Positions 3,634 to 31,408 of a DNA stretch of 32,399 nt are shown here, one piece after another; the first letter of the stretch is position 1; each line of letters opens with the position of its first letter. This DNA is from a virus. The stretch lies in the IMG/VR virus record IMGVR_UViG_3300020427_000006, positions 1 through 32,399 of that record, one strand, 5' to 3'. The notes under the pieces were generated by a model that saw only the letters and a program-made list of their open reading frames with translations, was not told the origin of the DNA and did not search any database. The position numbers and the translations under genes were made by a program.

Positions 3634-5277
3634 TTAAGAAATTTCTTTAGACAAAATAATTTCCTTTTCTGGAAACCATAATATATCTATATCTGACCTT
3701 TCATAGGTGTTCATAGCATCCACAGGACTTTCTACCAAAGCTTCACCAGCTAAATTAAAACTAGTATTTAATAATACCGGCACACCAGTTTTTTCATAAA
3801 ACGAATTCAACAAATTATAAAAATGTGGTATATCTAAATTAACTGTTTGCACCCTACAAGAATTATCTACATGAACAACGCCTGGTATATCATTACTCTT
3901 CACATTAAAGGACATTGTCATAAATTCAGATTTTTTTAATCCTAATGTATCAAAATAATCACCAAAATATTCTTCTAATATAGAACAAGCAAAAGGCCTA
4001 TACCATTCTCTATTCTTTATTTTATTTATAATCTCCTTTGCATTTGGTCTTCTAGCGTCAAATAATATTGACCTATTACCTAATGCTCTAGGACCAGCTT
4101 CTGCCATTCCATTATAAACTGCAACAACTTTACCTTGTGTTAAATAATCAGCAATATCATCTACACTACAATTGATACCTTTTACTTTAATATTATGTTT
4201 TACACCGTTAAAAAAAGTATTTTTTATAGGAGATATATTACAATTTTTTGTTTTATCTCGGTAAACATACATTGCTGAACCTATACTATTGCCTGTATCG
4301 TCAGCAATAGGTTCAAAATAAAAATTTACATTTGGCAAGTTTTTAACTAGATAAGAGTTTGTAACAACATTTAAACCATATCCACCACTTATACATACAT
4401 TTTTTATACCTGTTTCATTAATATATTTTTTAACTAAATCTAATACAACTTCTTGTGTTTGTTTTTGCACTTGATAAGAGTAATCAGCATAAAAAGAATA
4501 ATCATCTTTTTTTAATTCTCTACTATTATTTAAATTTTTATTTAAGTGTTCTTTTAAGAATATAGGCTTTAAATATCCACCATGAATAAAATAGTTAGAT
4601 ATTGGTATATTATCTACAAACAAACTTTTAAAATTTTTATTTTTACCATAAGAAGATAATCCCATGGTTTTTCCATTTTCTAACGAATCTTCACCAATTA
4701 ATGATGTGGCTGTTTCATACACTTTAGTAATATTATATGTGCTTTCTGCAACACACTCACAACCTAAAAATTGTTTTTTTATTTTGTTTAGAGTTTTATT
4801 ATTTTCAACATCATGGTTTTCACCAATATTTTCTACCCAATATGATTTGTAAATAGCTTTAAAATTGTTTGGATAAGATGATACAAAAACGGTTTCACTT
4901 TCTCTTAAGCCATCTATTTTTGCACCATTTCTATCTATTACAAATGTTAAACTTTTTTCAAATCCACTATTATAAAAGGCCAAGCTAGCATGAGCTAAGT
5001 GATGATTGTTACAAAATCTTAAAATGTCTGAATTGGGATAATATTTTTTTAAATAATTTTCAAAAAAAACATTCCACGGGGCATCCCAGGTAGGAGAACA
5101 AATTAAAATAAAATCAACCTCTTCATAATTTTTAATAACATATTCTAAAGCTTTAAATGGACTATTATCCCTTTTAATTCTAGTAAGTCTTTCTTCTTTT
5201 TGAAAATACTCAATCTTGCCGTTATTTAAAACAACAACGCTACTATCGTGAAATGGAGACATACTTAAAATTTTCAT
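3634..5277 (-). CDS. Carbamoyltransferase of the NodU/CmcH/TobZ family
   Basis: The 547-residue protein has the family layout. The N-terminal Kae1-like part has HDSS (10-13), HHLAHA (92-97), VIDRNGAKIDG (113-123) and GLSSYGK, then SGGYGLNVVTNS. The C-terminal domain has GPRALGNRSIL, NREWYRPFA and LLNTSFN. The family uses carbamoyl phosphate and ATP to place a carbamoyl group on a hydroxyl of a sugar, antibiotic or (in some phages) modified base. It overlaps the upstream pyruvyltransferase-like gene by 4 bases (ATGA), so both should act in one pathway, probably surface glycan modification. It is very AT-rich (9 G/C in 60 bases at 4501), unlike its upstream neighbour, suggesting recent acquisition. 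Length is near the family norm, so it looks intact. Confidence 0.9.
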   Translation of the reverse strand: MKILSMSPFHDSSVVVLNNGKIEYFQKEERLTRIKRDNSPFKALEYVIKNYEEVDFILICSPTWDAPWNVFFENYLKKYYPNSDILRFCNNHHLAHASLAFYNSGFEKSLTFVIDRNGAKIDGLRESETVFVSSYPNNFKAIYKSYWVENIGENHDVENNKTLNKIKKQFLGCECVAESTYNITKVYETATSLIGEDSLENGKTMGLSSYGKNKNFKSLFVDNIPISNYFIHGGYLKPIFLKEHLNKNLNNSRELKKDDYSFYADYSYQVQKQTQEVVLDLVKKYINETGIKNVCISGGYGLNVVTNSYLVKNLPNVNFYFEPIADDTGNSIGSAMYVYRDKTKNCNISPIKNTFFNGVKHNIKVKGINCSVDDIADYLTQGKVVAVYNGMAEAGPRALGNRSILFDARRPNAKEIINKIKNREWYRPFACSILEEYFGDYFDTLGLKKSEFMTMSFNVKSNDIPGVVHVDNSCRVQTVNLDIPHFYNLLNSFYEKTGVPVLLNTSFNLAGEALVESPVDAMNTYERSDIDILWFPEKEIILSKEIS

Positions 5278-6191
5278 ACTGCTTCAGCGAATGAGAAAGG
5301 TTTCTGTTTCTCCATCCAATCAAAAAGCTGATCATAATAAGGTTGAGCCTTTTCTATCTCTTCCACGTGCTTCGAAAACGTACGCGCGTCATACCACCCT
5401 TTCATAAATTCAAATACTGTGCGATCCTCTTGATCATAAGGAAAAGGCATTTGAGGACCTATGGCCAAGTGACAGGCAGCAGTGTCCAGGAACCCCTCAT
5501 TCTTCCAGGAATTTCCCTTGAAGACGTAGAAGGGACATCTGGCTATGCACGCCGCATACATTTCGTGATGCCTGCTTGTAATAAAATATTCAGCGGTTGA
5601 TAATCGAGAGATGACATCCTCCCACTTATCCGTAAAAATATTCACAGAAGGAATATTTTTTCTTCTCAGATCGTGATCGTGAGAAAAACTTCCGATGACG
5701 ACGCCGTCACGGGTTAAATGATTAAAAAAAGATTCACCCCATCCTGGATAAAGACCAGTAGGTTTCATATTGTAGGACAAGTCCAGGTGCAGATGAGCGT
5801 TGATGTTATGCTTGTTGAGCTCGGACTGTGATTTAATGTCACGCACCGAGACGTAGGATTCTTGAAGAATTTTTTTCAATTCCTTGGAAAGTGTCATCTG
5901 CTGCCACACCGTGTTGATTAGAAATATTTTTTTCTTCAGGGAATAAGCCTTGGAAATGAGCTCCAGGTACCATTTGGCCAGAGGCCTGTCGTGATGCATT
6001 GTTCCTTCTCCATTAATAACTATTCCCTCAGCGTCTTTAAAATTTTTTTCACTGTACTGGGGAAACTCCCCATTCTTAACTGATTCTAAAATAACATAAC
6101 CATTCTCTTTTAAATCATTATGAAGATAATCCATTACCGCTCTGCATCCGTCATGGAAATCAGAAGTATCGTTAAAGACCATTATTTTCAT
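5274..6191 (-). CDS. Polysaccharide pyruvyl transferase-like enzyme
   Basis: The 305-residue protein shows the pattern of the PS_pyruv_trans (CsaB/WcaK-like) family. There is an N-terminal Rossmann-like half with GIVINGEGTMHHD (about 56-68) and VRDIKSQSELNKHNI, then a second half ending in FITSRHHEMYAACIARCPFYVF, equivalent to the family's GRLHA...A..G.P segment. The fold is GT-B-like, and family members transfer ketal-pyruvyl groups or act as sugar transferases. Substrate cannot be told. It sits between small genes (upstream overlap TGATG-type with 6188-6334) and the carbamoyltransferase. A glycan-decorating pair is the simplest reading; DNA base modification is the alternative. Confidence 0.75.
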   Translation of the reverse strand: MKIMVFNDTSDFHDGCRAVMDYLHNDLKENGYVILESVKNGEFPQYSEKNFKDAEGIVINGEGTMHHDRPLAKWYLELISKAYSLKKKIFLINTVWQQMTLSKELKKILQESYVSVRDIKSQSELNKHNINAHLHLDLSYNMKPTGLYPGWGESFFNHLTRDGVVIGSFSHDHDLRRKNIPSVNIFTDKWEDVISRLSTAEYFITSRHHEMYAACIARCPFYVFKGNSWKNEGFLDTAACHLAIGPQMPFPYDQEDRTVFEFMKGWYDARTFSKHVEEIEKAQPYYDQLFDWMEKQKPFSFAEAV

Positions 6192-17278: not shown

Positions 17279-17502
17279 AAAAAGAAACTGCATATGGCAC
17301 CGTAAACAGAACGTGGGAAGTGTCCAGGGAGGCTGATAAAATTAAAGAAGCCTTGGAAACCCTAGTGGCTGCAGCTCACGGCAAAGATGCAAAAAACATT
17401 ACTGAGGCTACAAAACTCGTTGAAAAGACATTAATAACAAACAACGGAATATCCGATATAATGATCGCGGCATCAGATTGGAGGAATCGTGAACGATTAT
17501 AA
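17275..17502 (+). CDS. Unrecognised small helical protein
   Basis: The 75-residue product has an early RTWEVSREADKIKEALETLV segment and a second helix (AKNITEATKLVEKTLI), then SDIMIAASDWRNRERL. It looks all-helical. The start is coupled to the ribbon-helix-helix gene by ATGA, and the end overlaps the next gene by 14 bases. Function unknown. Confidence 0.6.
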   Translation: MKKETAYGTVNRTWEVSREADKIKEALETLVAAAHGKDAKNITEATKLVEKTLITNNGISDIMIAASDWRNRERL

Positions 17503-17875
17503 AAATTTATTTGTTTATGGAACTCTGAAAAGGGGCGGTAAACTTCACGATTTTTACCTTAAAAATCAAACATTTATGGGTACTTTCTATACGGAACCTA
17601 ATTATGTTATGGTGGATCTTGGAGCGTTTCCCATTGTATTTCCTGTTAAAAAAGGAACGGGGCAAAAAATAGAAGGGGAGATCTATGAAGTGGATGGCCT
17701 TCATTTCAGCACGGTTCAAACAATGGAAGAAGGCGCTGGGTATGATACGACACAAGATATTTTTTTATCTAAAGGTGGCGCCATCCATCGCATAGCTTCA
17801 ATTTTTGCCTATCCCCCTAAATATTTTAAAGGGAAAATAGAATCGAAAAAAGGAGTAGTAAGCTGGGGCAACTAG
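17489..17875 (+). CDS. Gamma-glutamylcyclotransferase-like (AIG2/GGCT fold) protein
   Basis: The GTG start has GGAGG just upstream. The 128-residue protein begins with NLFVYGTLKRGGKLH, the YGTLxxG substrate-loop motif of the GGCT/AIG2 family. VMVDLGAFPIVFP and GEIYEVDGL follow, with an acidic residue in the METMEEGAGY-like segment (QTMEEGAGYD) at the expected catalytic Glu position. Family members release 5-oxoproline from gamma-glutamyl amines or peptides. In a phage it could act on gamma-glutamyl adducts, an interesting echo of the amidoligase cassette at 28.8 kb, but no link is shown. Confidence 0.85.
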   Translation: MNDYKNLFVYGTLKRGGKLHDFYLKNQTFMGTFYTEPNYVMVDLGAFPIVFPVKKGTGQKIEGEIYEVDGLHFSTVQTMEEGAGYDTTQDIFLSKGGAIHRIASIFAYPPKYFKGKIESKKGVVSWGN

Positions 17876-23688: not shown

Positions 23689-24023
23689 TGTTGGTATCTA
23701 AAGTTATTACGTATCCGGAACTTTATGATGTTTCACTTATCATAGATCTTAAGGGTATTGAATGGTTTGATATGGTGAGGTGTTTAATATCCAACGAAGG
23801 AGCTATTATTAAAACTCCTCTTGCTGAATCTGTCAGGAAGCTGAGTAAGGATATTAGTTTAAATGGATTAAAGCATCCTGTTTTAATTTATGCCAATAAA
23901 GTTATTTATGGAATGCAACGCTGTGTAATCGCCAAATATTTAGACTATGATTATATTTCCTGTTATTATTGTGATACTATGGAACAACTAGAAAAAATTC
24001 ATCAAGAACAAATCAATGCCTAA
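23688..24023 (+). CDS. ParB/sulfiredoxin-like domain protein
   Basis: The 111-residue product has SVRKLSKDISLNGLKHPVLI followed by IYGMQRCVIAKYLDYDYISC. This is the ParB N-terminal pattern: strand, helix, GLKHPVLV, short loop, G-x-x-R-x-x-A-x-x-LG. Such domains bind DNA or nucleotides and in phages often lie near terminase genes. The 5' end contains the right copy of the 19-bp repeat, which here forms its start (MLVSKVIT). It overlaps the small terminase start by 8 bases. Confidence 0.7.
   Translation: MLVSKVITYPELYDVSLIIDLKGIEWFDMVRCLISNEGAIIKTPLAESVRKLSKDISLNGLKHPVLIYANKVIYGMQRCVIAKYLDYDYISCYYCDTMEQLEKIHQEQINA
23691..23709 (+). repeat. Right copy of a 19-bp direct repeat
   Basis: TTGGTATCTAAAGTTATTA is identical to 22670-22688. 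Here it encodes residues 2-7 of the ParB-like protein directly after its ATG. Confidence 0.85.
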
Positions 24024-24516
24024 GTATAAAAAGACTGAGAAGCTCACGCCAATGCAACTGCGCTATTCACATAACCTGGTGTTTGGAGAGGGTAAAGTTA
24101 CTGGAGCAGAAGCAGCCCGCCAGGCAGGATATTCAGAGAAAATAGCACGGCAAGTTTCCTATCAACTTCAGAATCCTATTATGTATCCGAAGGTAGTGTC
24201 TTACATCAAGGAGCTCAGGGAAGAGCAACAAAAGAAAAATGAAACTAATTTGTCAGTGCATATGCGTGACCTAAAGGAATTAAGGGAAGGGGCCAAAGAC
24301 AGTGGTCATTGGTCTGCAGCTGTTAATGCTGAAAAAATTCGAGGTCAAGCTGCAGGACTGCATGAAAAAGTTTCAACGGTATTGCACGGAACGATTGATA
24401 GTATGAGTAGGAAGGAAGTGGAGGCGCGACTTAAAGAAATAGTTGATTTTCACGCCCCTCTTATAGATCACATCACTGTTGATGATGTTAAGTCAAAAAA
24501 ACCACTTAAGAAGTAA
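24016..24516 (+). CDS. terS: Terminase small subunit
   Basis: The 166-residue protein has the terminase small-subunit pattern: KLTPMQLRYSHNLVFGEGKV followed by TGAEAARQAGYSEKIARQVS (helix-turn-helix) and YQLQNPIMYPKVVSYIKELR. A long charged helix (MRDLKELREGAKDS) and a basic C-terminus follow. It should recognise the packaging site and feed DNA to the large subunit, which here is nearly 7 kb away at 31409. The gene ends in AT-rich DNA and faces the minus-strand cluster. Confidence 0.8.
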   Translation: MPKYKKTEKLTPMQLRYSHNLVFGEGKVTGAEAARQAGYSEKIARQVSYQLQNPIMYPKVVSYIKELREEQQKKNETNLSVHMRDLKELREGAKDSGHWSAAVNAEKIRGQAAGLHEKVSTVLHGTIDSMSRKEVEARLKEIVDFHAPLIDHITVDDVKSKKPLKK

Positions 24517-27325: not shown

Positions 27326-27388
27326 AATTACTGAACTCACTCCCGAAATTACTGAACTCACTCCCCCGAATTACTGAATCGCACTCCC
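27326..27388 (+). repeat. Three near-tandem copies of the AATTACTGAAC repeat
   Basis: AATTACTGAACTCACTCCC occurs at 27326 and 27347 (period 21), and a variant AATTACTGAATCGCACTCCC at 27369. The first follows directly after the stop of the nuclease gene. In one frame the first two read ITELTPE-ITELTP. The same core occurs at 27474, 27615, 28125, 28234, 28258, 28282 and 31249, always on the plus strand. Confidence 0.85.
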
Positions 27389-27880
27389 CCTCATTATATT
27401 AGAGGCATCTCCAGCTTTACTTCCAGCAGCTCAAGCTGCAGCATGCTTCACTTCACCAGGGCCCGGAGATGGAAATTACTGAACTAGGCGCAGGATGTCG
27501 TAGGTTACTGAGTCGCGGGCCACTGTATGTAGTACTCAGTCTTCAGGAACAGCTTGAGTCACGCAGCTCAAGCTGGGCTGCAGGTTACATGACGGCGTCC
27601 AGGTGCTGCGTCGGAATTACTGAACTAACTCCCCCCGTTTCTGGGGTTTTCGGGGCGGGGCTAATGGTTTTCACTTTTATTAATACATGCCTTCCAGGGA
27701 AGCATGCCGCTGCATCTCAGGAAGTTCTTGCATATGGGAAAAAATGGGAGTATACAGGTACCTGGACTGCATCGTAATTCTAGATGATTTAACGTATCTG
27801 TCCAAGGACTGCAGCGGGAAGCATCTAGCGCCGAAAGGCTGGAGCTCTGCTCCCGCACTGTCCGGAAAAGAAAGGAGAAT
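27389..27880. other. GC-rich, hairpin-rich stretch without a convincing gene
   Basis: This stretch has two further copies of the AATTACTGAAC core (27474, 27615) and a diverged one (about 27504, GGTTACTGAGTCGC). It has several stems: GCAGCT/AGCTGC at 27426-27439, CAGCTTGAG/CTCAAGCTG at 27550-27575, and CTAGATG/CATCTAG at 27780-27828. A GCC-GAAA-GGC tetraloop-type hairpin (about 27831-27840) precedes GGAG/CTCC. An open frame at 27469-27777 lacks a proper ribosome binding site, and its product resembles no family. The stretch looks like non-coding or degraded DNA, possibly the structured leader of the 27881 gene. Confidence 0.6.
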
Positions 27881-28114
27881 ATGTCACATTTTTACGGCAT
27901 GATTTCCAGGAGCGCCAGGAAGACGACGCCAACGGCGCGAGCTCACGCGAGCTCAGGACTGGAAACGATTTCAGCGTCCTGGCAGGGCGCGGTCCAGGTT
28001 ATCCTGAACCACAACGCGGAAACGGGAAAAGACTGGTACCGCGTGGACCTGATCCCGTGGCACGGGACCGGCGTTTATAAGACTATAGCAACGGGCACAA
28101 TAGACGGCTCGTAA
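27881..28114 (+). CDS. Small phage protein of the MSHFYG type (77 aa)
   Basis: The ATG has a strong ribosome binding site (AAAGGAG). The product starts MSHFYGMISRSARKTTPTAR and contains SGLETISASWQGAVQVILNH, then TGKDWYRVDLIPWHGTGVYK. I recognise this as a widespread small phage and bacterial protein of unknown function that opens with MSHFYG and has the SWxGAVxV and PWHGxG segments. It is GC-rich and the only convincing gene in the repeat region. A strong terminator follows 24 bases after its stop. Confidence 0.8.
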   Translation: MSHFYGMISRSARKTTPTARAHASSGLETISASWQGAVQVILNHNAETGKDWYRVDLIPWHGTGVYKTIATGTIDGS

Positions 28115-28137
28115 TCAATGGCTAAATTACTGAACAC

Positions 28138-28169
28138 ACTCGGCCCCAATTCAGGGGCCGAGTTTCTTT
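28138..28169 (+). terminator. Strong rho-independent terminator
   Basis: A perfect 10-bp stem (ACTCGGCCCC with GGGGCCGAGT) and a 6-base loop (AATTCA) are followed by TTCTTT. It lies just after the 27881 gene, and an AATTACTGAAC core sits immediately in front of the stem. It would end the transcript of the 27881 gene. Confidence 0.85.
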
Positions 28170-28233
28170 GGAGGAGTATTGATGTTATTTTATTTAATGA
28201 GCTGGGCAGCCCGGGCCCTGGAGAAGCTGCGGA

Positions 28234-28300
28234 AATTACTGAACTAACTCCAGCCCGAATTACTGAGATGACTCCACGCCGAATTACTGAATCGTATTCA
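28234..28300 (+). repeat. Three AATTACTGAA copies with a 24-nt period
   Basis: Copies begin at 28234, 28258 and 28282 and read in one frame as ITELTPAR, ITEMTPRR and ITES. The exact 24-base period differs from the 21-base period of the first array. This shows independent expansion or sequence drift between the arrays. Confidence 0.8.
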
Positions 28301-28307
28301 TACTATT

Positions 28308-28417: not shown

Positions 28418-28440
28418 GGGATAATATCCCATATTATCCC
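28418..28440. promoter_or_regulatory. Perfect palindrome with GGGATAATAT arms
   Basis: GGGATAATAT (28418-28427) and ATATTATCCC (28431-28440) flank CCC. Each arm contains the GGGATAAT core also found at 10131 and, on the minus strand, at 26910. It lies at the entry to the AT-rich cassette and may be an operator, a bidirectional -10 element, or both. Confidence 0.55.
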
Positions 28441-28485
28441 ATAAATAACTGTTGCGATGTGCATAAAAATAGTCATAATAAAATA

Positions 28486-28686
28486 ATGATTAAAAATATC
28501 AGAGAAAAACTTGAAAAAATGATAGGGCAAAATTTCATTTGTTTTGTTGCTAATTCTTGGATAGTAATTTTTAGCGAGATGTTTAATTCATTGATGTCAG
28601 ATGTAGATAGTTTCTTATCTGTTAGATGGTGTAAGGAATTTAGAAAACCATACTGTGAATTAAATAAGGTACTAGAAAAACTTTAA
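28486..28686 (+). CDS. Unrecognised small protein (66 aa)
   Basis: I set the start at the ATG at 28486 (MIKNIREKLEKMIGQNFICF); an in-frame GTG at 28459 is possible. No clear ribosome binding site is seen for either. The rest contains ANSWIVIFSEMFNSLMSDVD and SVRWCKEFRKPYCELNKVLE. A possible promoter, TTGCGA and CATAAT with 16 bases between, lies just upstream. The gene is AT-rich like the following cassette. Function unknown. Confidence 0.5.
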   Translation: MIKNIREKLEKMIGQNFICFVANSWIVIFSEMFNSLMSDVDSFLSVRWCKEFRKPYCELNKVLEKL

Positions 28687-28781
28687 TATTTTTTATTGTT
28701 GCTATTTAACATTGTGAATTAAGATTACTATTTTTTCAAGGCTCTATCTTTATTTTAGAAAGTTAGAAAGTAGAGGTAATG

Positions 28782-29879
28782 ATGCCCAATGAAAATACTA
28801 CACAAGCACAAATAAGTACAACAGATGATGAAAGCACTTTGTATACTTGTGATTGCTGTTCTAATGATGGTTTTACTTTGTCTCGAATGTCAGACAATCA
28901 TACTTTTGAAGATTTTTCTGGTATGAATGTTTGTTCACATTGTAGAGAAAATGAATTTAGGTATTCAGATCGTACAGATAGTTATATTCATAATGATGAT
29001 TGGTGTTCCGATGATCACGAAAACTTTGAAGAAAACTTTGATGATGATAGACCACCAGAAAGCGAATATATTAATTCGTATATGTCTGGTAGTTTTCGGA
29101 ATACTAGACCATTATTTAAACCTTATGAAAAATTTGATGGCAACCTTTTAATTCTAGGAATAGAAAATGAGGTACAAGTTAGAGGATCAAGTCGTTTAGG
29201 TCGTGATGATTTAGCGTATAACATTACGCAACACGATTTAAAAGATTTTGCAATTTGTAAGGAAGATAGTTCAATTGGCTATGGTTTTGAAATTGTTTCA
29301 AAACCTGCGACATTTGAATATCATAAAACAGCGTGGGATATATTTTTTCAAAACTCGGCTAGGTATTTGCGTAGCTATAGAGATACGACAACAGGTTTAC
29401 ATATACATATAAATCGAAGTTTTTTATCTCGTATGGCTGTTGGTAAAATTTTAGAGTTCATTAACAGCGATGTTAATAAAAGTTTTATCAATGCTGTATC
29501 TGGGAGAGAGCAAACCCATTATTGTATGAGAAATAATTCTTTAAAGATTAAGAATGAAAAAACATACAGAGATAGGGGAGCATTTCACATATATTGTGAT
29601 GGAACGCCTACACACGAATTCAGGTGTTTTTCTGGTAATGTCAAAAAAGAAAGTTTTTTTAAAACTGTAGAATTTGTCGTTGCTATTTGTCATTATGTAA
29701 AAAATGAATGTCCTAACATTAACATTAATTATACGGATTTTGTTTCTTATGTAAGATCAAGTCATTTTAATTATCCTTACTTGTTTAATTGGCTGATGAA
29801 AAAAGGCTATTTGAATTCAAGGAATTTAGGAAGATTAAAAGAAAAAACAAAGTTCTATAATAAAAAGAAAGTGAGATAA
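28782..29879 (+). CDS. Amidoligase (glutamine-synthetase-like COOH-NH2 ligase) with N-terminal zinc finger
   Basis: The start is set at the ATG at 28782, which has AGAGG about five bases upstream. The protein (365 aa) opens with a Cys-rich module (TCDCCSNDGF...VCSHCRENEF). The ligase domain (about residues 120-330) follows: LGIENEVQVRG (E-x-E), ICKEDSSIGYGFEIVSKPAT, TTGLHIHINRSFLSRM (H-x-H) and THEFRCFSGNV (EFR). These are the motifs of the Amidoligase_2 family, which uses ATP to join a carboxyl and an amine. The next gene, a class II amidotransferase, is three bases away, so the two probably work together. AT-rich, unlike neighbouring modules. Confidence 0.82.
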   Translation: MPNENTTQAQISTTDDESTLYTCDCCSNDGFTLSRMSDNHTFEDFSGMNVCSHCRENEFRYSDRTDSYIHNDDWCSDDHENFEENFDDDRPPESEYINSYMSGSFRNTRPLFKPYEKFDGNLLILGIENEVQVRGSSRLGRDDLAYNITQHDLKDFAICKEDSSIGYGFEIVSKPATFEYHKTAWDIFFQNSARYLRSYRDTTTGLHIHINRSFLSRMAVGKILEFINSDVNKSFINAVSGREQTHYCMRNNSLKIKNEKTYRDRGAFHIYCDGTPTHEFRCFSGNVKKESFFKTVEFVVAICHYVKNECPNININYTDFVSYVRSSHFNYPYLFNWLMKKGYLNSRNLGRLKEKTKFYNKKKVR

Positions 29880-29881
29880 TT

Positions 29882-30772
29882 ATGTGTTTAATTGTAGTAG
29901 GAAACAAAGATAAGGTTTCCAAACAAAAAACAATACTAGAAAATGCATTAAGAATAAACAGCAATGGCTTTGGTTTAATGTATTTTAAGAACGATGATGT
30001 TTTATCTAAAAAAACTTTATCAAAAAACTTTGTTGATGTAGAAAACTTAATCAAATCAGTTGTTGAAGATTGTTCTGATAAGTTAGCATTGCATTTTAGA
30101 TTTGCAACACAGGGCATAGTTGATAAAATCAACACACACCCTATTACTGTTTTAAATAAAAACAGCGATGGCAGATCAGTTAAGTTAATGCACAATAGTC
30201 CTATGTTACCAACAGCGTTAATTGATAAGGATAGATCAGACACTCACCAATTTGTTAAATATTATTTGCGACCAGTTTTAAAATCTAACCCAGATTTATT
30301 ATATAATCAAAAATGGTTAGAACAATTAAACGCTGATTGCGATAGTGCAAGAATGGTTTTTGCAGATGGTAAAACTAATAGTTTTATTTATGTAAATAAA
30401 AAACTTTGGGAAAAAAAGGATAAGATTTGGTATTCCAATGACAATTGTTTTTCTTCTAGTTCTTGGATGAGTAATATTTCTTCTGGTTTTGGTCAATCTT
30501 CTAACTATTATAATAATAGTTGGGATTATGCCGATCAAGAAAATATAGATTATTTAAAATCAGATGATGCAAAACAAATAACTAATGGCAATCAACAAAA
30601 ACTTTTTGATGATCCAGAAAATGATCCGATGGATTTTTTAGATATGCCTTTAGATGATGACTTGTTACAGCAAATGGATGAAAATCAAATTGCTGATTAT
30701 GTAAAGAATAATAACGATGAGGTTATTAATTATTTACAACAATTAAAAACAGACTTTTTTTATAATGGATAA
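29882..30772 (+). CDS. Class II glutamine amidotransferase (GATase II, Ntn hydrolase)
   Basis: The 296-residue protein starts MCLIVVGNKDK, so Cys2 becomes the N-terminal nucleophile after Met removal. Class II motifs follow: NSNGFGLMYFK, ALHFRFATQG (with Arg), NTHPI and LMHNSPML. After about residue 190 comes an Asn/Ser-rich and then very acidic region (DDPENDPMDFLDMPLDDDLL). The enzyme should hydrolyse glutamine or transfer an amide. With the amidoligase it can be read as an amide or peptide modification pair. Its leader AGAAAGTGAGA is shared with the 30859 gene. Confidence 0.85.
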   Translation: MCLIVVGNKDKVSKQKTILENALRINSNGFGLMYFKNDDVLSKKTLSKNFVDVENLIKSVVEDCSDKLALHFRFATQGIVDKINTHPITVLNKNSDGRSVKLMHNSPMLPTALIDKDRSDTHQFVKYYLRPVLKSNPDLLYNQKWLEQLNADCDSARMVFADGKTNSFIYVNKKLWEKKDKIWYSNDNCFSSSSWMSNISSGFGQSSNYYNNSWDYADQENIDYLKSDDAKQITNGNQQKLFDDPENDPMDFLDMPLDDDLLQQMDENQIADYVKNNNDEVINYLQQLKTDFFYNG

Positions 30773-30858
30773 CCAATAGCCATTGGTTTGATAGAGCCTT
30801 GAATAAATAGTAATCTTAAAGTTAACGAGCATTAACAATAAAAGAAAGTGAGAAAGTT

Positions 30859-31083
30859 ATGTTGAATAAATTTCAAGATCAAGATTTATTTTCTAGTGTA
30901 GAAAAACTAGAAAACTTAAAAGAGGATATAGATATAATTATATCTTCAATTAAGAATATGCATCCATCATTGTTTAATAGTCCTCGTGTTGCTAAATACA
31001 ACACACCAGATGGCAGATATGATCCAACACCAATTATAAATGATGATGACAACACTATTGATGGAATGGATGGAGAAGAATGA
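30859..31083 (+). CDS. Small acidic protein (74 aa), candidate substrate or partner
   Basis: The product starts MLNKFQDQDLFSSVEKLENL, with a helical N-terminal half, then PSLFNSPRVAKYNTPDGRYD and a C-terminus of nearly only acidic residues and Gly (DDDNTIDGMDGEE). The leader AGAAAGTGAGA is the same as that of the GATase gene, so the two are probably regulated alike. It belongs to the AT-rich cassette. A role as a substrate for the ligase is a hypothesis from position and acidic carboxyl-rich end only. Confidence 0.6.
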   Translation: MLNKFQDQDLFSSVEKLENLKEDIDIIISSIKNMHPSLFNSPRVAKYNTPDGRYDPTPIINDDDNTIDGMDGEE

Positions 31084-31193
31084 AAATATATATGCACCCT
31101 ATTTTATTTAAATCTAAATTACTTATGTACTTATATATTTGGTACATAGTTTTAATTAAAATAAAACTTAAATATTATTTATTTAATAAATAA
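31080..31193 (+). CDS. 37-residue hydrophobic peptide
   Basis: The ATG overlaps the stop of the acidic protein gene (ATGA), with GGAG five bases upstream. The product starts MKIYMHPILFKSKLLMYLYI and ends KLKYYLFNK, a Tyr/Leu/Ile-rich chain with Lys that could span or line a membrane. The coupling and ribosome binding site support translation. Function unknown; it may be part of the same cassette. Confidence 0.5.
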   Translation: MKIYMHPILFKSKLLMYLYIWYIVLIKIKLKYYLFNK

Positions 31194-31217: not shown

Positions 31218-31247
31218 TTGATCCTGCAATTAAAATTGCAGGATCAA
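31218..31247. repeat. 30-bp near-perfect palindrome at the end of the AT-rich cassette
   Basis: TTGATCCTGCAATT (31218-31231) and its exact reverse complement (31234-31247) flank AA. No T-run follows on either strand, so it is not a typical terminator. The repeat core AATTACTGAA follows directly at 31249. It may be a protein-binding site, a recombination site or a transcript end. Confidence 0.75.
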
Positions 31248-31248
31248 T

Positions 31249-31266
31249 AATTACTGAATGATATTC
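31249..31266 (+). repeat. Right-hand copy of the AATTACTGAA repeat
   Basis: AATTACTGAATGATATTC matches the core of the arrays at 27.3-28.3 kb and resembles the 28282 copy (AATTACTGAATCGTATTC) at 16 of 18 positions. A weaker match (TATTACTGAA) starts at 31302. Together with the left arrays, these bracket the AT-rich cassette. Confidence 0.75.
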
Positions 31267-31408
31267 AGACTTTAGGTACTTACGATTAATTGACAATCTA
31301 CTATTACTGAAATTTTTACCCCATCCCCCTAAATATAAGGAAGGATTCCTTGTATTCTGGTTTCGTGCTATGATTGATATAAACATAGAATATGGTAAAA
31401 CATTCAAT

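Follow-up and report, generated by a model that had tools for sequence, protein, structure and literature searches.

A boxA motif and a conserved long-range helix bracket the amidoligase and amidotransferase genes in marine phages

Two adjacent enzyme genes in a viral genome, one for an amidoligase and the other for a class II glutamine amidotransferase, are exactly enclosed by the arms of a helix that spans about 2 kb, and a boxA lies directly in front of the first arm. A boxA followed by a leader-trailer helix is regarded as the signature of rRNA operons. The enzyme pair is already known; the bracket around it is the striking part. I think it rather likely that boxA and helix, in the manner of pre-rRNA, serve to excise or protect the bicistronic phage mRNA that encodes the pair. 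A sequence-only reading of the same DNA had missed both the long-range inverted repeat around the first two genes and the boxA 5' of it.

Layout of the cassette

The window, by which I mean the whole stretch of DNA analysed, is IMG/VR record IMGVR_UViG_3300020427_000006 (32,399 nt). The cassette occupies 28418-31193, between the genes for the small (24016-24516) and large (from 31370) terminase subunits, and all its elements lie on the plus strand. It was reported as AT-rich, and is: the GC content is 0.28-0.30 over both enzyme genes and 0.36-0.50 in most of the window. A small leader ORF (28486-28686, MIKNIREKLEK...), conserved in three related contigs (L008, L010 and L011), precedes the bracket. 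Within it are the amidoligase gene (28779-29879, 366 aa) and the amidotransferase gene (29882-30772, 296 aa), which are nearly contiguous as claimed, although the gap is 2 nt, not three. The leader said to be common to genes 2 and 3, AGAAAGTGAGA, is found exactly at 29866 and 30843, where it forms their Shine-Dalgarno regions, and there is no third mismatch-free copy. A local hairpin read by eye, AACCAAT-AGCC-ATTGGTT (30771-30788), spans the second stop codon immediately 5' of the right arm; its stem sequence is kept in relatives and its loops vary, again as judged by eye.

Other elements surround the cassette. At least 10 copies of ATTACTGA(A)(C)(T)NACTCC, at 27327-28304 and 31250-31322, flank it on both sides, between the VRR-nuclease gene and terL; they could be binding sites for terminase (pac) or another protein. 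Just 5' of terL (31218-31290, with equivalents in L011, L013, L015 and L017) are a hairpin, one copy of ATTACTGA and a stretch of conserved sequence resembling CTTAGGTACTTAC, possibly a late control signal. Far from the cassette, on the minus strand at 3634-6191, genes for a carbamoyltransferase and a polysaccharide pyruvyl transferase are adjacent, and one kb of that region has 26% GC.

A helix across 2 kb

A repeat search found a 30-nt inverted repeat, 97% complementary, whose arms enclose exactly both enzyme genes. The left (leader) arm, 28719-28748, begins 7 nt 3' of boxA and ends 30 nt 5' of the amidoligase ATG; the right (trailer) arm, 30790-30819, is complementary to it but for one U.U. 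The arms are about 2 kb apart and would form a helix of about 29-30 bp. Their placement is constant in relatives, about 30 nt 5' of the ATG and 18-29 nt 3' of the last stop.

In close relatives (amidoligase 77-81% and amidotransferase 92% identical) the repeat is present, with the same substitution in both arms. Diverged relatives have the same genes between arms of differing sequence, with complementarity restored, and this holds in every lineage of the clade. Over six distinct rows of the alignment, 16 of 28 pairs have changed on both sides and 97.6% of the cells are paired. The covariation score is 0.648, which none of 500 shuffles reached, compared with 0.196 in the shuffles and 0.07-0.11 when slid. 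The two arms of one lineage match at 28 of 29 positions, those of different lineages at only 15-21 of 29, and the cofold energy is -36 to -48 kcal/mol as against about -7 to -10 after shuffling. The alignments thus point to a long-range pairing backed by compensatory change, and they are strong evidence that selection acts on pairing across 2 kb.

Could the bracket be a property of the enzyme pair? I reject this idea, since no bracket was found at distant amidoligase-amidotransferase pairs, and assign the helix to the phage group rather than to the enzymes. Nor is it an rRNA in disguise: the brackets contain protein genes, not rRNA, and no Rfam family matches the window or nine other bracket loci.

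The boxA upstream

The 17-mer directly 5' of the left arm, CTATTTAACATTGTGAA, matches the boxA motif of alphaproteobacterial rrn operons, CTNTTTRACATTGTGAA, and the boxA region as a whole (TGCTATTTAACATTGTGAA, 28700-28718) agrees with rRNA boxA, TGCTCTTTAACA, at 11 of 12 positions. Relatives also have boxA upstream of the helix, perfect in L013, 11 of 12 in L015 and others, and degenerate (9 of 12) in L010 and L011. A boxA with two mismatches is to be expected by chance within the window, so the weight of the motif rests on its position and conservation.

A longer motif, CTCTTTRACATTGTGAA, scanned over bacterial genomes, turned up mostly in Alphaproteobacteria. The exact 21-mer boxA of L015 had no match in bacterial genomes, and the bacterial scan was therefore made with a shorter motif. 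Among 119 bacterial boxA sites, 17 precede a 16S start by 117-216 nt, and about a dozen precede a 23S start by 139-216 nt; Rfam confirmed the 16S downstream in two, and many other sites are at contig ends or unassigned. As a positive control, the same pairing search recovers the known pre-23S stems downstream of that bacterial boxA. The spacing differs: the helix mostly starts 60-165 nt 3' of this boxA in host rRNA and 7-13 nt in the phages.

Brackets around other genes

Viral contigs were scanned for boxA alone, with no reference to amidoligases, and a second scan required in addition a ribosome binding site and ATG. Together they gave 127 usable boxA sites. With a bracket counted at a score of at least 49, there were brackets at 22 of these sites and at 3 of 808 control positions. 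In the boxA-seeded brackets the arm begins 0-7 nt 3' of the motif, and each encloses a single gene that has a ribosome binding site of its own. The cargoes are unrelated to one another: several unknown small proteins and proteins with an NRYCGPS motif, which by eye resemble C39 peptidases. Some brackets are in tandem, their cargo being unrelated to amidoligases: in L345 (5352-6701) a single boxA precedes two consecutive brackets, L418 (373-1471) has two successive boxA-bracket units, and there are further cases in L307 (1312-2175) and L298.

Relatives of the terS, polA or terL of the window are present on all 21 contigs with brackets. The device therefore belongs to the window's phage group, where it is known here only from metagenomic contigs. 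Isolates of this group, HTVC023P and HTVC027P, infect Pelagibacter; the parts fetched of these two, of 023Pt_psg01 and of DSL-LC04 contain no boxA bracket, and there is none near the homologous cargo of Roseobacter phage CRP-901 and Erythrobacter phages XM05 and L02. One bracketed family (L324:1512-2258 and relatives) has the motif NRYCGPSVISA and unbracketed homologues in CRP-901 and XM05. In Lentibacter phage ICBM1 the leader contains a boxA with one mismatch and gene 2 is enclosed by an inverted repeat; since the arms of this repeat fold into local hairpins, the case was not counted. An inverted repeat of 45 nt in L093 (2751-2795 and 3759-3803) consists of two near-identical leaders that lie on opposite strands, each including an ATG and its ribosome binding site.

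A model from ribosomal RNA

The use of boxA and host Nus factors by a phage is familiar from the nut sites (boxA/boxB) of phage lambda. The phage of the window differs in that no boxB hairpin or N-like protein was identified in it; it has a long-range helix instead. Another parallel is pre-16S rRNA of E. coli. There boxC comes 18-19 nt after boxA; it forms part of the leader-trailer helix and shares sequence with the RNase III site, and the model is that factors bound at boxA retain the leader up to the emergence of the trailer (PMC10250234). Bacterial rrn operons and the phage bracket share a boxA at the 5' side, a leader arm behind it, a trailer arm 2-3 kb on, and a near-perfect helix of about 25-30 bp or more (PMC10250234). 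What sets the phage bracket apart, besides its occurrence in phages, is the protein-coding mRNA inside it, ribosome binding sites included, the short distance from boxA to helix and a recurrent U.U mismatch.

Since the elements are in the same order in the phage as in E. coli pre-16S, I propose tethering and antitermination at boxA, formation of the helix, and release by RNase III. Host Nus factors would assemble at boxA and accompany RNA polymerase, which, so modified, would resist termination and keep the leader arm near the RNA exit. The trailer arm, as it emerges, would pair with the tethered leader arm. Host RNase III would then cut the helix, presumably with an effect on expression, and free the bicistronic mRNA from a longer transcript that reaches terL and the late genes. 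The same proposal allows that the helix may simply protect the ends of the mRNA.

The same wrapping around quite unlike genes in related phages suggests a borrowing of the host's rRNA-processing machinery for messages. The general form of this idea is that the marine phage group uses the host pathway for rRNA transcription and maturation, with its boxA, Nus complex, leader-trailer helix and RNase III, as a device for excising single or paired mRNAs from long phage transcripts. Genes unrelated in function would enter it as bracketed units, in some cases one behind another. To my mind its truth is evenly balanced. If true, it would give viruses a new route to the host's rRNA machinery, explain small accessory phage genes that lie between long inverted repeats, and offer a module for excising and stabilising bacterial mRNAs. 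It opens the question whether the Nus complex, by keeping the leader arm close to the RNA exit, promotes long-range pairing on a non-ribosomal message. I found no earlier report of phage mRNAs wrapped by boxA and helix in the open-licence literature of PubMed Central; a report elsewhere is possible.

Alternative views

The arms might instead act as DNA, as terminal inverted repeats at the ends of a small cassette that can move or be inverted, in which site-specific or homologous recombination equalises the arms and enables genes to be swapped. They are placed like the terminal repeats of an insertion sequence, the bracketed cargo varies and occurs in tandem, and the site 5' of terL is variable between phages. 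It is the positions without Watson-Crick pairs that speak otherwise. Read on the message strand, 33 of them are G.U and 3 are A.C over 26 brackets, the window's included; since brackets from related phages are not independent, the count overstates significance and its nominal p of 2e-7 is too low, but the direction is clear. The window's clade alone has a ratio of 3:0 after trimming, 6:0 over helix columns. A U.U mismatch occurs 15 times over the 26 brackets, at a similar place in unrelated ones. The preference for G.U over A.C on the message strand, together with the recurrent U.U, indicates that the helix established by covariation acts as RNA, and a cause at the level of DNA (terminal repeats, gene conversion, inversion) is disfavoured because it gives no reason for a strand bias. 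Moreover, the boxA-seeded brackets that were inspected have boxA only at the gene-start side, the recovered cassettes of the window's type are all in one orientation 5' of terL, and the outer ends of the arms are unconserved. The window's bracket holds only the ligase and the amidotransferase. A transposon or insertion sequence was rejected, there being no transposase or recombinase between the repeats and no target-site duplication visible in the flanks. I judge recombining DNA arms to be distinctly improbable.

Even as RNA, the helix might close the mRNA into a loop that protects the message or controls translation without any cleavage. Such a loop would suit arms that hug the coding part so closely, and a duplex between 5' and 3' UTRs is known from icaR mRNA of S. 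aureus, where it is cut by RNase III (PMC3868564). In both cases the UTRs of one mRNA pair and form a substrate for RNase III, in the phage presumably so. However, the pairing in icaR relies on a short motif, UCCCCUG, and covers the Shine-Dalgarno sequence, whereas the phage bracket has about 29 bp, a boxA, up to two genes and ribosome binding sites left free. The boxA just 5' of the arm points to the rRNA pathway, and a near-perfect duplex of 25-30 bp is a likely substrate of RNase III. I therefore consider a loop that escapes cleavage unlikely. A further idea looks outside the bracket, to gene 3 (30859-31083, 74 aa), whose product the sequence-only reading saw as a small protein with an acidic end, perhaps tagged by the enzymes. 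By extension the pair would modify this or another neighbour-encoded partner. Gene 3 is real and adjoins the pair in several lineages of the clade (in the window, L008 and L010-L013). It is nevertheless confined to this clade and not present in all its members, being absent from L016 and L017, has no detectable homologue at distant amidoligase-amidotransferase loci, and its acidic end is not conserved. Gene 4 (31080-31193), the predicted 37-aa hydrophobic peptide, is there, but outside the window it occurs in none but the closest relatives (L008), which are 92% identical. With the acidic tail unconserved and gene 4 limited to near relatives, tagging is unsupported; the acidic protein was rejected as a substrate on conservation, and modification of any such partner is hardly credible.

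The enzyme pair

Both enzyme assignments made earlier stand, on the Pfam cut-off for the ligase, conserved catalytic residues and fold matches. The amidoligase scores 23.3 bits against Pfam Amidoligase_2 (PF12224), past the curated cut-off of 22, and matches phrog_16683 (2.7e-17) and phrog_2443 (2.6e-6). Its motifs E-x-E (E129, E131), H-x-H (H208, H210) and E-F-R (E280, R282) are invariant in 29 homologues, and the N-terminal Cys module, C24/C27/C52/C55, is invariant in the eight closest. The AF2 model resembles YbdK, GS, PafA and Dop (E down to 1.6e-4, with TM only 0.3-0.4), and the modelled protein combines a glutamine-synthetase-like fold with catalytic E-x-E, H-x-H and R. The amidotransferase begins M-C, as described, with C2, R73, N105 and D120 conserved. 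It scores 16.1 bits against Pfam GATase_4, under the cut-off of 23; the best fold matches of its model are GlmS and EgtC, with low confidence in region 193-250. The N-terminal Cys, the Ntn fold and the R, N and D of the GlmS glutaminase site mark it as a class II glutamine amidotransferase. Together the enzymes probably use glutamine-derived ammonia and ATP to form an amide on some carboxylate. Nothing here demonstrates peptidoglycan or any other substrate.

That these families are paired in phages, as noted earlier, is published: the conserved pair is described by Iyer et al. 2009 (cited in PMC10580990) and in PMC5498523, so this part of the cassette is known. The genes are adjacent, in either order, in nearly every locus from which both were recovered, and the named phages MEP401, MEP402 and MW202733 have the pair with neighbours ordered as in the window. 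The paper on the Methylophilales phages MEP401/402 names both genes and repeats the idea of cell-wall alteration (PMC10580990), PSA-HP1 and others have a "peptidoglycan modification cassette" (PMC5498523), and cell-wall peptides are a proposed target in other phages. The lytic phages phiEco32, Pseudoalteromonas PSA-HP1 and MEP401/402 likewise have an amidoligase (PF12224) next to a class II amidotransferase. The window differs from the known pairs in its short ligase with only the Cys4 module in front, in its HTVC023P-like phage, and in its bracket, which distant pairs lack. The PSA-HP1 cassette has as companions an ATP-grasp protein, a second amidoligase and a gamma-glutamyl cyclotransferase; the window has a GGCT-like gene (17489-17875, phrog_2520) and no ATP-grasp among the scanned genes of this incomplete genome.

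The GGCT-like gene, of an enzyme type reported beside the amidoligase cassettes of other phages, has a single tblastn match among annotated phages. In another phage (L064), a 27-nt inverted repeat with two G.U positions (1448-1474 and 2056-2082) lies between two amidoligase genes. A podovirus region that also holds an amidotransferase gene (L005, MW202828) has the palindrome GGTGTCGTTAACGACACC repeated across it.
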